Source: Candidatus Saccharimonadales bacterium (GTDB lineage: Bacteria > Patescibacteriota > Saccharimonadia > Saccharimonadales > Saccharimonadaceae). Taken from it: a stretch of DNA of 64,000 nucleotides. Both the position numbers and the translations under genes were made by a program. The stretch's first letter is position 1; the number at the start of each line of letters is the position of its first letter. The notes under the pieces are model-generated. The model had not been told where the DNA came from, did no database searches, and saw nothing but the letters and a program-made list of their open reading frames with translations. The DNA is taken from assembly GCA_035317825.1 (NCBI GenBank), contig DATHGB010000015.1, positions 1 to 64,000 on the forward strand. Reading direction: 5' to 3'. This document shows positions 8,696 through 55,016 of this stretch, piece after piece.

Positions 8696-8947
8696 TCAGT
8701 TGCTGGAAATCCTCGAGCAATTCCGTGGAGGGTAGGCATCATCAGAGATACGCTGGTTGGAGGCGCGTTGTATGGAGGCGCCGAACCACATGCAGAGACC
8801 GCAGAGGAAGAGCGTGACGCCCATCCAGATGATGACGCCGGCTTGAGCGAAGATGCCGATCAGGACGAAGAAGATACCTAGTCCGATCGCTATTCCGCTC
8901 AGCGCGTTGACTACGCCGGTGGTCTTGAAAACAGGCTTGTTGCTCAT
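8696..8947 (-). CDS. Small two-helix membrane protein
   Basis: 83 aa. Two hydrophobic segments, about residues 14-30 (GIAIGLGIFFVLIGIF) and 35-55 (VIIWMGVTLFLCGLCMWFG), joined by a tight turn, then a polar basic tail. No family recognised. The gene stands alone with its own near-consensus promoter, a GGAG ribosome site at normal spacing, and a hairpin after it. By eye it is GC-richer than neighbours (32 of 60 bases in 8821-8880). It may be a recently gained single-gene unit. Confidence 0.7.
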   Translation of the reverse strand: MSNKPVFKTTGVVNALSGIAIGLGIFFVLIGIFAQAGVIIWMGVTLFLCGLCMWFGASIQRASNQRISDDAYPPRNCSRISSN

Positions 8948-13995: not shown

Positions 13996-14003
13996 ATCTC
14001 GTG

Positions 14004-14270
14004 ATGATTACAGCAGATAACAAAGCCAAGGCACTTGCTTTGACACAGACTCACAAAACCGACGTCGGTAGCCCACAGGCACAGGCATCTGTTTTAACGG
14101 TTCGTATCAAGGAGATTACCGAGCACCTAAAGACTAACAAGCACGACCACATGGCTCGTCGCGGACTTATTCAGATGGTCGGTCGTCGCAAACGATTGCT
14201 CAAATACCTCGAATCAAAAGATTTCGAAAGCTACAAAGCAGTCGTCGCCGCACTAAAACTCCGCAAATAA
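14004..14270 (+). CDS. rpsO: 30S ribosomal protein S15
   Basis: 88 aa, standard length. Binds 16S rRNA helices 20-22. Conserved blocks are DVGSPQAQ, the long helix SVLTVRIKEITEHLK with HMARRGLIQMVGRRKRLLKYL, and a short tail. ATG 14004 is preferred over GTG 14001 from promoter spacing, though either would be leaderless. The usual partner pnp is downstream but separated here by a GGDEF-like gene and an opposing whiB. The stop codon lies inside the terminator stem. Confidence 0.97.
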   Translation: MITADNKAKALALTQTHKTDVGSPQAQASVLTVRIKEITEHLKTNKHDHMARRGLIQMVGRRKRLLKYLESKDFESYKAVVAALKLRK

Positions 14271-14287
14271 ACAAGGCGGAGTTTTTT
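14255..14287 (+). terminator. rpsO intrinsic terminator
   Basis: AAAACTCCGC (14255-14264) pairs with GCGGAGTTTT (14276-14285), followed by more T. The 5' arm overlaps the end of the coding region. Confidence 0.9.
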
Positions 14288-14318
14288 AGGTTGCGTCTTA
14301 CTAAATTTTAAGACAACC

Positions 14319-14344
14319 AGACCTTTTATTTTGGAAGGTCTTTT
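14319..14344 (+). terminator. Second hairpin before the GGDEF-like gene
   Basis: AGACCTT (14319-14325) with AAGGTCT (14335-14341) and T-run. It could back up the rpsO terminator or attenuate read-through into the next gene. Confidence 0.6.
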
Positions 14345-14392
14345 AGCTGTCTAATGCATTAAGTTATATAATTAAGGAGGGGCGAATTACGT

Positions 14393-15028
14393 ATGGCGTC
14401 TGAAAAGATGGAATTTGAACGTACTTCTTTCGAATCACCTAACGGTGATGCCGAAATTGATAAACTAACAGAACTGCGTAATTTGCGGTGGTTAGATAAT
14501 CATCTCCCGGGAATTATTTACAGGTATCCAGGTAACTTCGCGTTAGTGTTCGCTGATATGGATAACCTCAAAGAGGTAAACGACGAATATGATCATGACG
14601 AGGGCGATCAATATATCGCAAATGTCGCCCACGTACTTCGCGAGATGCTTCGCCGAGACGACTCGGTCGTTATTCGCATATCAGGAGACGAGCTGATAAT
14701 TTTGCTGATGGGCGTGAGTAGCGAAGAGAATATGAATCTAGCAATCTCACGTTTTACGGAAGAGCTTGATGATATTGGAGCGCCCACATCATTTGGCGGC
14801 GTCGTTCACATGCCAGGTCAGACAGGTGAAGATTTAAAAAAAGCGGCGGATGCTGCATCGCAGTTCAATAAGCATCAAAGGCAAATAGCTAATCTCACCG
14901 TTGTTCAAATAGAAGCTATAGGAGATGCGGCGGTAGGGTTGGAAGCTGAGGGTATATCGCTAAGGGGGCTTGCAGGTAGGGTCGAGGCTCTAAGGTTGGC
15001 TGGTATACTTCCTCCGTCGAAGTCCTAG
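14393..15028 (+). CDS. GGDEF-like protein with a changed signature
   Basis: 211 aa. FALVFADMDNLKEVNDEYDHDEGDQ is the metal and substrate half of a diguanylate cyclase (D/N pattern as in DxDxFKxxND), and RISGDELIILL is the signature loop, reading SGDEL instead of GGDEF. The I-site and sensor domain are missing, and the N-terminal 35 residues are polar. Single-substituted signatures can be active or act as c-di-GMP/GTP receptors. A strong AAGGAGG at 14374-14380 gives it an SD leader. It lies between rpsO and pnp, normally neighbours. Confidence 0.8.
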   Translation: MASEKMEFERTSFESPNGDAEIDKLTELRNLRWLDNHLPGIIYRYPGNFALVFADMDNLKEVNDEYDHDEGDQYIANVAHVLREMLRRDDSVVIRISGDELIILLMGVSSEENMNLAISRFTEELDDIGAPTSFGGVVHMPGQTGEDLKKAADAASQFNKHQRQIANLTVVQIEAIGDAAVGLEAEGISLRGLAGRVEALRLAGILPPSKS

Positions 15029-15039
15029 GGGCATGAGTG

Positions 15040-15078
15040 AGGCCTCGTACCTTCGCGTGAGCGTTGGTAGCGAGGCCT
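15040..15078 (-). terminator. whiB hairpin terminator
   Basis: AGGCCTCG (15040-15047) pairs with CGAGGCCT (15071-15078), extended by a bulged TACC/GGTA. It starts 12 nt past the whiB stop on the minus strand. Confidence 0.65.
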
Positions 15079-15089
15079 TGTTGAAGCAC

Positions 15090-15347
15090 TCAGGCAGTGG
15101 CAGTGCGGATCCTGGCACGGGCGTTGCGGCGCTTCAGCACACGACGCTCGTCCTCGGACTGACCGCCCCAGACACCGTGGTCTTGGTCGGACGCGAGAGC
15201 CCACGCGAGGCACTGCTCAAGCACGTCACAACGGCGGCACACCTGCTTGGCTTCTTCGATCTGGAGGATCGCGCGGCCGGTGTTGCTGATGGGGAAGAAC
15301 AGTTCCGGATCCTCATTGAGGCAAACGGCTTTGTGACGCCAATCCAT
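15090..15347 (-). CDS. WhiB-like iron-sulfur transcription factor
   Basis: 85 aa. MDWRHKAVC then CRRCDVLEQC gives the four-cysteine [4Fe-4S] pattern C-x(n)-CxxC-x5-C. GVWGGQS is the G[VI]WGG turn that contacts the main sigma factor, and RRVLKRRNARAR is the basic DNA-binding tail. These features define Wbl proteins of Actinobacteria and their phages, which bind sigma A and sense redox or NO. The start at 15347 is used because the promoter begins downstream of longer starts and AAGGGA lies 9 nt upstream. The gene is GC-rich (40 of 60 bases in 15181-15240). Transfer from an actinobacterial host or phage is the natural reading. Confidence 0.93.
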   Translation of the reverse strand: MDWRHKAVCLNEDPELFFPISNTGRAILQIEEAKQVCRRCDVLEQCLAWALASDQDHGVWGGQSEDERRVLKRRNARARIRTATA

Positions 15348-15423
15348 GGCGGTATATCCCTTCACGTCGGAGCTGAGTGATACTTCAGTAACACTATAAC
15401 ATACTATACAAAATAAAGCAAGC

Positions 15424-15450
15424 ATTATAGAAGATAATAATCCTTGTCAA
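15424..15450 (-). promoter_or_regulatory. whiB promoter
   Basis: Minus strand: TTGACA (15450-15445), 15-nt spacer, TATAAT (15429-15424). The short spacer may make it activator-dependent. The AT-rich promoter contrasts with the GC-rich gene. Confidence 0.7.
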
Positions 15451-15486
15451 CGAGCTCTATTATTTAGTTTAGGCAGCTAAACAGTG

Positions 15487-15597
15487 TATAATGAAAACAT
15501 CACTCGCTACCGGCGATTTAAGTGGTGGATACAGGAATTCTCTCACTGAGAAACTCTGCACCCGTTACTTATCGTTTTAATATAAAAGGCGAGTGAT
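15487..15597 (+). promoter_or_regulatory. pnp promoter and structured leader
   Basis: TATAAT at 15487-15492 puts +1 at about 15499. The first nine bases ATCACTCGC (15499-15507) pair perfectly with GCGAGTGAT (15589-15597), just before the ribosome site at 15603, and an inner TTCTC/GAGAA hairpin lies between. In enteric bacteria pnp is autoregulated through a long leader stem cut by RNase III and trimmed by PNPase. Similar control is plausible here, with RNase J also nearby. Confidence 0.7.
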
Positions 15598-15617
15598 TAT
15601 AAAGAGGAGGACTTAAG

Positions 15618-17738
15618 ATGTCTACGATTAACCCTAACGGCAAAGAGATCATCTCTGTTACCACTGATCTTTGTGGCAAACCATTAACACTTGAAGTTAA
15701 CCGCGTCGGTTTTCGTACCAGCGCTAGCGTCCTTGTAACCTACGGCGAAACTGTCGTACTAGGTACTGCAATGGTTGGCAAAAAACCAATGAGCGGCATG
15801 GATTATTTTCCGTTGTCGATCGACTACGAAGAAAAATTTTATGCAGCTGGCAAAATCAGCGGTAGCCGTTTTATCAAACGCGAAGGCCGCCCAAGCGACG
15901 AAGCGATTTTGATCGGCCGTTTGATTGACCGCCCAATCCGTCCGCTATTTCCAAAAGGCTATCGTCAAGAAGTCCAAACTGTTGCCAGTGTCCTTTCTAT
16001 GGATCCAAACTTCCGTCCTGACATGGTTGCGATGATCGCTGCAAGTACTGCACTTATGCTCACTGGCGCACCATTTGACGGCCCTGTTGCTGGCCTTCGC
16101 GTCGCACGCGTAAACGGTGAATTCAAAGCTTTTGCCACGGCGGAAGAGCGCGAAGAAAGCGACCTGGATATTGTCGTTGCTGGTATTGAAAGCGGTATCA
16201 CGATGGTTGAAGCTGGCGCGAACCAGGTGACAGAAGATGTCATTGGTGACGCACTTGCATGGGCATACGAACAGCTTCAGCCAGCGATTAAATTACAAAA
16301 CGAACTAGTTAAAAAAGTTGGTGTCGAAGCTCTTAAATACGAACTAGTCCTTCCAAACGAAGCGTTCCAAGCTATCGTTGATGAATGGGTTTCTGACAAA
16401 CTTGGTGAAGATATCCGCCGTCCATACCCAGAACGAAACGAACTAGTGGCAACGCTTCGTGACCAGTTCCACGTGGCTATGGTCGAAAAATTCGGCGACG
16501 AAGATTACAAAATCCTACGTGACGAATACGACGAAGCCTTTACGATGGCGCTTCACAAAGATGTTCGCCGTGGCATCGTTGAAAGCGGTACGCGCCCAGA
16601 CGGCCGTAAACTTGATGAAATCCGAGTCCTAAGCTCAGAAATTGGCATCTTGCCACGTGCGCATGGTTCATCATTATTTACCCGCGGCCTGACACAAGGC
16701 ATGAACATCATCACGCTCGCGCCGCTCAGCTACTCGCAAATGGTTGATACGATGGAGCAAAACGACTACCAACGCCGTTACATGCACCACTACAACGCGC
16801 CAGGCTATACGGTTGGCGAAGTCCGTCGTCTTGGTTCACCAGGCCGCCGCGAAATCGGTCACGGCTACCTTGCTGAACGCGCGGTCATGCCAGTACTTCC
16901 AACCGAAGAAGAATTCCCGTACGCAATCCGAAGCGTAACAGAAATCATGAGCCAGAACGGTTCTACCAGTATGGCCGCTACTTGTAGTAGTGTCCTTGCG
17001 TTAATGGATGCCGGTGTGCCGCTAAAAGCGCCTGTATCTGGTATTGCCATGGGACTCATGATGGACGGTGACAAGCCATACGTCCTAAGCGATATTGCCG
17101 ATGCCGAAGATTTTGCCGGTGACATGGACTTCAAGGTAACTGGAACAGAAGCCGGTATCACGGCAATTCAAATGGACATGAAAGTCCATGGGCTGCCCGT
17201 AGAAATCCTCCGTGAAGCACTGACTAAAGCAAAACCAGGCCGCCAGCATATTCTTGAACACATGATTTCAACAATCGCGTCGCCGCGTCCTAACCTTAGC
17301 CCGTATGCTCCACGCATTGAAAAGATCAAGATCAATCCTGACAAGATTGGTGCAGTGATTGGCAAGGGCGGGGAAGTCATTAACAAGATTACCGCCGAAA
17401 CTGGTGCCGAGATTGATATTAAAGAAGATGGCCTGATTACCGTTGCCGCAAGCGATACTAAAAATATCGAAAAAGCGATCAATTGGATTAAGTCACTTAC
17501 CGAAGAACCAGAAGTCGGTCACATTTACGAAGGTAAAGTTGTCAGCATCAAAGATTTTGGCGCATTCATCAATATCCTACCTGGCATTGACGGAATGGTT
17601 CACATTTCAGAACTATCAAATGAACGTGTCGAAAAGGTTGAGGACGTGATTCACGAAGGTCAGATTGTCAAAGCCAAACTGGTTGGCATTGACGAACGCG
17701 GCCGACTAAGCCTGTCATTAAGAGACATAGAACAGTAG
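15618..17738 (+). CDS. pnp: Polyribonucleotide nucleotidyltransferase (PNPase)
   Basis: 706 aa, full length. Phosphorolytic 3'-5' exoribonuclease working as a trimer. Two RNase PH domains (about 10-230 and 320-560; catalytic block in MDMKVHGL and SDIADAEDFAGDMDFK), a helical linker, KH domain with IGKGGEVINKI near residue 580, and S1 domain from VGHIYEGKVVSIKDFGAFI. The SD is AGAGGAGG just upstream. Its leader folds back on the 5' end. A strong terminator follows. Confidence 0.98.
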   Translation: MSTINPNGKEIISVTTDLCGKPLTLEVNRVGFRTSASVLVTYGETVVLGTAMVGKKPMSGMDYFPLSIDYEEKFYAAGKISGSRFIKREGRPSDEAILIGRLIDRPIRPLFPKGYRQEVQTVASVLSMDPNFRPDMVAMIAASTALMLTGAPFDGPVAGLRVARVNGEFKAFATAEEREESDLDIVVAGIESGITMVEAGANQVTEDVIGDALAWAYEQLQPAIKLQNELVKKVGVEALKYELVLPNEAFQAIVDEWVSDKLGEDIRRPYPERNELVATLRDQFHVAMVEKFGDEDYKILRDEYDEAFTMALHKDVRRGIVESGTRPDGRKLDEIRVLSSEIGILPRAHGSSLFTRGLTQGMNIITLAPLSYSQMVDTMEQNDYQRRYMHHYNAPGYTVGEVRRLGSPGRREIGHGYLAERAVMPVLPTEEEFPYAIRSVTEIMSQNGSTSMAATCSSVLALMDAGVPLKAPVSGIAMGLMMDGDKPYVLSDIADAEDFAGDMDFKVTGTEAGITAIQMDMKVHGLPVEILREALTKAKPGRQHILEHMISTIASPRPNLSPYAPRIEKIKINPDKIGAVIGKGGEVINKITAETGAEIDIKEDGLITVAASDTKNIEKAINWIKSLTEEPEVGHIYEGKVVSIKDFGAFINILPGIDGMVHISELSNERVEKVEDVIHEGQIVKAKLVGIDERGRLSLSLRDIEQ

Positions 17739-17809: not shown

Positions 17810-18382
17810 ATGAGCAAGCAGCAGGAACTCGATAAGTTAAAACAAGCAATTTTGGATAATAACATTTGTCCCGAACTTGCTGCACAAGCGACGAATCTTG
17901 TCATGGGCGACGGTAATTTAGATACTGACATCGTGTTTATTGGTGAGGCGCCAGGCAAAAACGAAGACGAGCAGGGACTGCCGTTTGTCGGTGCGGCGGG
18001 GAAGTTCTTGAACGAAATGCTGGGAGAAGCGGGTATGCAGCGAAGCGACGTGTATATTACCAACATTGTTAAATACCGCCCGCCGAATAACCGTGATCCT
18101 TTGCCTGAGGAGAAGAAGGCTTTTTGGCCGTATTTACTGAAACAGCTGCAGATTATTAAACCGAAAGTGGTGATTACGCTCGGTCGCCATAGTATGGAAT
18201 ATTTTTTGCCAGACATGAAAATCAGCCAAATTCATGGCCAGCCGAAACGGATTCAATTTGGCGATGATAAACTGGTCATTATTCCACTGTATCATCCGGC
18301 GGCTGCGTTATATAACGGCGGTATGCGACAAACGTTAATTGACGATTTTGTGTCGGTTCCAAAGATTATTGAAAAAATTTAA
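17810..18382 (+). CDS. Family-4-type uracil-DNA glycosylase lacking the Fe-S ligands
   Basis: 190 aa. Motif A FIGEAPGKNEDEQGLPFVG and motif B LYHPAAAL are those of family 4 (UDGa), which removes uracil from DNA. Normal members hold a 4Fe-4S cluster on four Cys. Here only C20 remains at the first pair, and the later two ligands are Y89 (in KYRPPNNRDP) and W106 (in AFWPYL). The cluster is therefore lost while the catalytic loops persist. TATAAT at 17797-17802 is 7 nt before the ATG, so the mRNA is probably leaderless. Confidence 0.88.
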   Translation: MSKQQELDKLKQAILDNNICPELAAQATNLVMGDGNLDTDIVFIGEAPGKNEDEQGLPFVGAAGKFLNEMLGEAGMQRSDVYITNIVKYRPPNNRDPLPEEKKAFWPYLLKQLQIIKPKVVITLGRHSMEYFLPDMKISQIHGQPKRIQFGDDKLVIIPLYHPAAALYNGGMRQTLIDDFVSVPKIIEKI

Positions 18383-54686: not shown

Positions 54687-55016
54687 ATGGAAGCACATTC
54701 GAGCAAGGTAAGACGACGCATCACTACCGCAGTTGCGGCTGCGGCATGTGTCACGACGCTGCAGTTCGGCGTACTCGCCCCCCAGGCGAGCGCCGCATCG
54801 CAGTGCACCGCCGGAATCGGTCAGGTTGGCCCCTACGCGTACTGCGGGAACGGCCCCGGTCAGTTCCGTGTCCGCATCCTGTGTCAGAACATTTTCACGC
54901 TCGGCTCGCGGTGGGTTTGGGGCTCGTGGTTCAACGCCGGCGGCGGAACCATCTCCACGGCCAACTGCGCGTGGAACGAGCGCCTGTACGGCAGCCCCGG
55001 ATACGAGACCCGCTAG
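54687..55016 (+). CDS. Small secreted protein, GC-rich and actinobacterial in style
   Basis: 109 aa. Sec signal: KVRRR, a hydrophobic core (TTAVAAAACVTTLQFGVLA) and an AxA-type cut at ASA near residue 36. The mature part of about 72 residues has four Cys (QCTAG, AYCGN, ILCQN, ANCAW), suggesting two disulfides, and aromatic RWVWGSW. It resembles small exported proteins of Streptomyces-like bacteria. GC-rich (36 of 60 bases in 54841-54900) beside AT-richer pilin genes, with its own promoter and terminator: likely acquired. Confidence 0.75.
   Translation: MEAHSSKVRRRITTAVAAAACVTTLQFGVLAPQASAASQCTAGIGQVGPYAYCGNGPGQFRVRILCQNIFTLGSRWVWGSWFNAGGGTISTANCAWNERLYGSPGYETR

Follow-up and report, generated by a model that had tools for sequence, protein, structure and literature searches.

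A WhiB1-type gene of probable actinobacterial origin between rpsO and pnp in a Candidatus Saccharimonadales genome

In Actinobacteria, Wbl proteins are transcription regulators that bind region 4 of sigma70, and they normally carry an iron-sulfur (Fe-S) cluster. The Saccharimonadales bacterium considered here comes from a lineage that lives on Actinobacteria. How did a gene of this family reach its chromosome, and what could it do there? Wbl proteins have been described as occurring only in Actinobacteria and in actinobacterial phages (PMC8612146), and we found no paper reporting Wbl genes in this class. We analyzed a 64,000-nucleotide stretch of contig DATHGB010000015.1 (the window), in which an initial annotation made from sequence alone had described a complete 85-residue Wbl protein with four cysteines, a GVWGG motif and a basic tail, encoded by GC-rich DNA between rpsO with a GGDEF gene and pnp, and transcribed against these neighbors.

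Both parts of that description were borne out. The protein (85 amino acids including the start, MDWRHKAVC...RTATA) matched Pfam family PF02467 (Whib) at 90.4 bits, with a cut-off of 23.6, and its best match in the PDB was Mycobacterium tuberculosis WhiB1 (5oay). It has the four-cysteine pattern of Wbl proteins, C-Xn-C-X2-C-X5-C (C9, C37, C40, and C46), which would supply all of the ligands of a [4Fe-4S] cluster; the G[I/V]W[G/A]G turn, as GVWGG, with the equivalent of W60; the residues W3, F17, and F18, which together with W60 contact sigma from the Wbl side; and the basic C-terminal tail. The likeness to WhiB1 (M. tuberculosis Rv3219) and WblE (Streptomyces) (5oay and 6ono) extends over 83 of 85 residues, at 128 bits. 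Numerous Wbl genes elsewhere in the class lie near a different subfamily, WhiB2/WhmD (Streptomyces WhiB; 8dy7), to which the window gene does not belong (61.7 bits). An NCBIfam search assigned no family to the protein, and no export signal or signal peptide was evident by eye. By every sequence test, the window gene is WhiB1. What is new is its setting: in contrast to known WhiB1/WblE genes, it lies outside Actinobacteria, in the rpsO-pnp slot of a genome whose RpoD does not have H516 and in which no known Fe-S scaffold was found, so that partner sigma factor, Fe-S supply, and lineage all differ.

A longer reading frame of 111 amino acids begins at 15425, within the -10 box, and is not likely to be the real one; the 85-residue start is preferred. 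The gene had also been credited with its own promoter and hairpin, and each claim stood in part. The AT-rich leader contains, by eye, a promoter-like TTGACA-15 bp-TATAAT and an alternative extended -10 element, but a consensus promoter and terminator scan, which required a spacing of 16 to 18 bp, found none at whiB1. A strong stem lies 3' of the gene (fold of 15029 to 15092, -30.3 kcal/mol, z = -6.1), although the U-tract of a terminator is absent. An Rfam search of 13 to 17 kb returned nothing of note. On the other side of the locus, the pnp leader (15480 to 15617, + strand) shares blocks around CACCCGYTACTTATCG, together with a hairpin, with another genome (G117, L362), and this leader has no Rfam match either.

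Table 1. Features of the whiB1 locus and its surroundings, in window positions
Feature	Positions	Strand	Basis
rpsO, left border of slot	14001..14270	+	ORF; orthologues at same place in relatives
rpsO-pnp intergenic cargo slot (here GGDEF gene and whiB)	14271..15617	.	Comparison with relatives
GGDEF-domain protein, 211 aa, co-cargo of slot	14393..15028	+	PF00990, 80.9 bits
Downstream stem-loop, possible terminator without U-tract	15040..15078	-	RNA fold
whiB1/wblE-type CDS, 85 aa including start, TGA stop	15090..15347	-	PF02467, 90.4 bits
Shine-Dalgarno-like GAAGGGA, 9 nt 5' of the 85-aa start codon	15357..15363	-	Sequence read directly
Putative alternative extended -10, TG-T-TATAGT, TGTTATAGT	15393..15401	-	Read directly by eye
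Putative promoter, TTGACA-15 bp-TATAAT	15424..15450	-	Read directly by eye
pnp, right border of slot	15618..17738	+	ORF; orthologues in 29/31 genomes searched
Family-4 uracil-DNA glycosylase, 3 of 4 Fe-S ligand Cys lost	17810..18382	+	Alignment to 4zbx and 1vk2; Pfam UDG, 125.5 bits

The composition of the gene sets it apart from its surroundings. Its coding DNA has a GC content of 63.5% and a GC3 of 0.74, while the window as a whole has 46% GC, its longer genes have a mean GC3 of 0.43 (standard deviation, 0.05), and the neighbors of whiB1 range from 0.43 to 0.50. Some 340 bp of GC-rich sequence within 46% GC DNA could reflect an assembly chimera or contaminating actinobacterial DNA, a danger that the initial annotation had itself raised. 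We consider this very unlikely, because whiB1 lies 15 kb inside a 98-kb contig and because the very same slot is occupied by different Wbl genes, likewise pointing away from pnp, in two other genomes of the family (G261 and G066). Furthermore, genes of the class lie within 100 to 300 bp on either side, the leader is AT-rich, and the genome (1.116 Mb, 96.5% complete) has an estimated contamination of 1.13%. The Wbl gene in the G261 slot is of the WhiB1 type and 64% identical to the window copy; the one in G066 resembles WhiB3/WhiD (8cwr), a subfamily different from that of the window gene. The slot itself is variable. Distant relatives have only 145 to 250 bp between rpsO and pnp, and in near relatives the cargo ranges over GGDEF and NUDIX genes, a permease, and others. 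The permease, of the xanthine/uracil type and 67% GC (G055, L365:1-1290, - strand), is probably also actinobacterial.

From which actinobacterium, or which of its phages, did whiB1 come? Among GTDB species genomes, the closest relative is that of Kribbella catacumbae (87% amino acid identity over 82 residues), and the best 80 relatives are all Propionibacteriales by record title or by match; one, recorded as Streptomyces sp. SID13031, nevertheless groups with Kribbella. Compared as DNA, the gene is up to 84.7% identical to copies in other Kribbella. It groups with Kribbella in the protein tree (SH-aLRT, 85) within a Propionibacteriales WhiB1 group (SH-aLRT, 94) and is thus nested among actinobacterial WhiB1/WblE proteins; in the DNA tree, it falls near the split between Kribbella and Nocardioidaceae. 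Actinophage WhiB proteins (TM4 and Gordonia phages; PMC8612146) are comparable as Wbl proteins carried by a parasite of Actinobacteria. However, the best phage copy is only 48% identical over 77% of the query, the nearest relatives are not phage genes, and the neighbors are rpsO, a GGDEF gene, and pnp, so a phage source was rejected. Plasmids (matches reaching 79% identity and covering 79% of the query) and viral contigs (two distant matches, 50 to 51%) were likewise rejected as sources. The high identity to Kribbella, the position in the trees, and the far greater distance of phage copies together make it nearly certain, as far as sequence comparison can establish, that whiB1 was taken up recently from the chromosome of a Kribbella/Nocardioidaceae-like actinobacterium. 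The suggestion of an actinobacterial origin was thus upheld; of the host and phage copies that it had proposed to compare, only the former, as chromosomal Propionibacteriales WhiB1, qualify as the source.

We next consider whether this gene is a lone oddity. Of 393 class genomes, 109 carry Wbl genes (101 of the 342 of good quality), as do 77 of the 153 genera sampled. A draw of 380 genomes across the phylum gave 18 positives, all in the same class; about 343 of the 380 were newly drawn (G393 to G735), the sixteen of these that were examined were all of other classes, and no Wbl gene was found among the some 343 phylum genomes outside the class. The survey called for in the initial annotation did find Wbl genes elsewhere in the group, and the window gene is no lone exception. 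Ancient vertical inheritance of a single class Wbl gene might be read from its presence in half of the sampled genera and from a nucK-polA slot common in the window's own family. We regard this as practically excluded. Class Wbl proteins are spread over WhiB1, WhiB2, WhiB3, and other subfamilies, with 31 label changes on a large tree; monophyly of 33 class Wbl sequences relative to 34 others was rejected by the AU test (p-AU about 0; delta lnL, 210); and, for the window copy, the closeness to Kribbella DNA refutes it outright. The sequence data all but establish that the class acquired wbl genes many times independently, while in some subclades (e.g., genus g2) inheritance may well have been vertical. 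Repeated captures, in more than one in four sampled genomes from a class of another phylum, change the picture of an exclusively actinobacterial family, and they provide a genetic record of which organisms lived together. Several class loci, including L219 and L243, hold tandem rows of two to five divergent Wbl genes, and in others (L177, L178, L180, L182, and L190) the Wbl domain follows a long uncharacterized N-terminal part.

Since its transfer, the window copy has changed rapidly in amino acid sequence. On the DNA tree, its branch measures 0.118 at codon positions 1 and 2 and 0.143 at position 3, whereas at other tips the length for positions 1 and 2 is mostly under a tenth of that for position 3. 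Pairwise dN/dS values are 0.13 to 0.23 for the window copy, compared with 0.03 to 0.07 among actinobacterial pairs, and the change spares every known functional residue. Such a rate fits either re-adaptation or relaxed constraint, which these data do not separate, and an unsampled donor could explain part of the excess. Because of the rate, the gene might be a mere passenger, captured from a host not long ago, weakly expressed or silent, and drifting in a slot that turns over its cargo. The hypervariability of the rpsO-pnp slot would agree with this, as would the fact that we found no second genome carrying the window copy. We nevertheless think it quite unlikely, given that the frame and every family-defining residue are intact and that Wbl genes, divergent four-cysteine ones included, have been kept repeatedly and independently in the class.

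If the gene functions, the first puzzle is how a four-cysteine Wbl protein would work in a cell that has no known Fe-S scaffold. Our inventory consisted of family searches for SufBD, NifU/IscU, and radical SAM proteins. Neither SufBD nor NifU/IscU was detected in the window genome or in the 24 other Wbl-positive genomes searched (25 in all), and matches above the cut-off occurred only in Wbl-negative genomes (4 of 17); one genome (G143) has a SufBD-like match below threshold. Radical SAM proteins had no match in the window genome and were absent from 19 of the 25 Wbl-positive genomes. The other six have them, and those checked keep the CX3CX2C motif without SufBD or NifU/IscU, which leaves room for an unrecognized assembly route and makes the notion of a whole class without Fe-S proteins too strong. 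For the window cell, the searches suggest that it is unable to build a cluster. A gene close by tells a similar story. Solved relatives of family-4 uracil-DNA glycosylase carry four Fe-S cysteines, and the window enzyme has lost three of them, as have those of G066 and L390. The Wbl domains have fared differently: 113 of 116 in the class, divergent ones included, keep all four cysteines, so these residues are being kept by selection even where the known means of cluster assembly are absent.

The second puzzle is which sigma factor such a protein would bind. The initial annotation had proposed to check whether the main sigma factor keeps the WhiB-binding residues of region 4, and it does not: RpoD of the window genome has Lys-His where M. 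tuberculosis sigma-A has H516-P517. All 41 sampled class RpoDs are altered at this place (Lys-His in 37, Lys-Asn in 3, and Arg-His in 1), with or without Wbl in the genome, while Kribbella RpoD keeps His-Pro. Other Patescibacteria also vary here, so the substitution did not arise as an adaptation to Wbl. In vitro, the H516A substitution in sigma-A alone abolishes WhiB3:sigma-A4 binding (PMC10245118). The missing histidine thus counts, at the level of sequence, against unmodified binding of the window protein to its own RpoD.

Other loci of the class do connect Wbl domains with sigma factors. In G291, a single 455-residue frame (L243:4941-6305, - strand) encodes sigma70 regions 2, 3, and 4 followed by a C-terminal Wbl domain; three more Wbl genes lie in a row divergent to it. 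This sigma70-Wbl fusion is, as a prediction from sequence, a new observation that points to action in the Wbl-bearing cell itself, and it is the only one seen. In G014, a Wbl domain is fused to a MarR/IclR-like winged helix, and other Wbl proteins have weaker winged-helix matches. Of 100 Wbl loci, about 25 include polA, for the most part in a dnaG-rpoD-nucK-[Wbl]-polA arrangement, and in the window's own family many Wbl genes lie shortly past rpoD, with nucK on one side and polA on the other. In the window genome, that place holds a second, divergent sigma70 of 322 amino acids (L355:375-1340, - strand, contig C10). Contigs C10 and C15 both start within polA and so probably adjoin, which would put rpoD some 18 to 19 kb from whiB. 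As proof of a link to sigma, the rpoD neighborhood is weakened by the presence of Wbl genes in other conserved slots as well (rpsO-pnp, next to gltX, and others); it is suggestive only, because the nucK-polA slot also varies, and it may be a cargo hotspot and not a functional link.

Our first choice, to which we give an even chance, is that the window WhiB has been re-adapted to regulate transcription in the epibiont itself. The captured WhiB1/WblE gene was inserted into the rpsO-pnp slot, facing away from pnp, behind a native AT-rich leader from which it would be transcribed. By analogy with Wbl proteins in Actinobacteria, the 85-residue product would remain in the cytoplasm, bind region 4 of a sigma70, and regulate the cell's own RNA polymerase, through an interface re-adapted to Lys-His in place of His516-Pro517. 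Because the genome shows no known Fe-S scaffold, the four cysteines would probably form a thiol/disulfide or metal site, or hold a cluster delivered by an unrecognized route. The sigma70 and winged-helix fusions, the nucK-polA loci, and the lack of a visible export signal speak for own-cell action, and the extra amino acid change on the window branch fits re-adaptation. Against it stand the RpoD histidine missing throughout the sample, the lack of matches to SufBD, NifU/IscU, and radical SAM proteins in this genome, and the fact that there is but one sigma fusion.

The main rival, possible if doubtful, holds that the protein is delivered into the actinobacterial host, for example by a type IV secretion system (T4SS), is loaded there with an Fe-S cluster, binds host sigma-A, and shifts host transcription. 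This would make sense of a protein that keeps its sigma-A-binding residues and cysteines in a cell whose own RpoD and Fe-S inventory seem not to suit it, and of Wbl cysteines conserved across the class although an adjoining glycosylase has lost its cluster ligands. Wbl genes are also confined to a class whose cultured members grow on Actinobacteria, but contact with donors explains that restriction equally well. To our knowledge, no protein cargo of an epibiont T4SS and no delivery of regulators by any Patescibacteria have been described. There is a precedent in phage TM4, a parasite whose WhiB acts on the host by down-regulating host whiB2 (PMC8612146), and one cultured relative needs its T4SS for epibiotic growth (PMC12102498). 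However, no signal peptide is evident in the 85 residues, own-cell action is the more natural reading of fusions to sigma70 and DNA-binding domains, and some Wbl-positive relatives have CX3CX2C radical SAM proteins despite lacking the scaffolds. Taken further, epibionts would be cellular analogues of actinophages: they would capture Wbl genes whose products they cannot load with Fe-S, and deliver these to a host that supplies the cluster and, through sigma-A, the histidine, with host transcription rewired as the outcome. We hold this broader scheme to be rather unlikely. Either answer, own-cell or host-directed, would be informative, as a new way to use a Wbl protein or as the first regulator aimed by an episymbiont at its bacterial host.

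Two other genes of the window stand out in composition. One, at 54687 to 55013 (+ strand), encodes a 109-residue protein with a signal peptide-like start, a GC3 of 0.78, and no Pfam match; it sits in a type IV pilus operon, between pilin and prepilin peptidase, and looks like another recent actinobacterial import. The other, at 8699 to 8947 (- strand), encodes an 83-residue membrane protein with a GC3 of 0.75.
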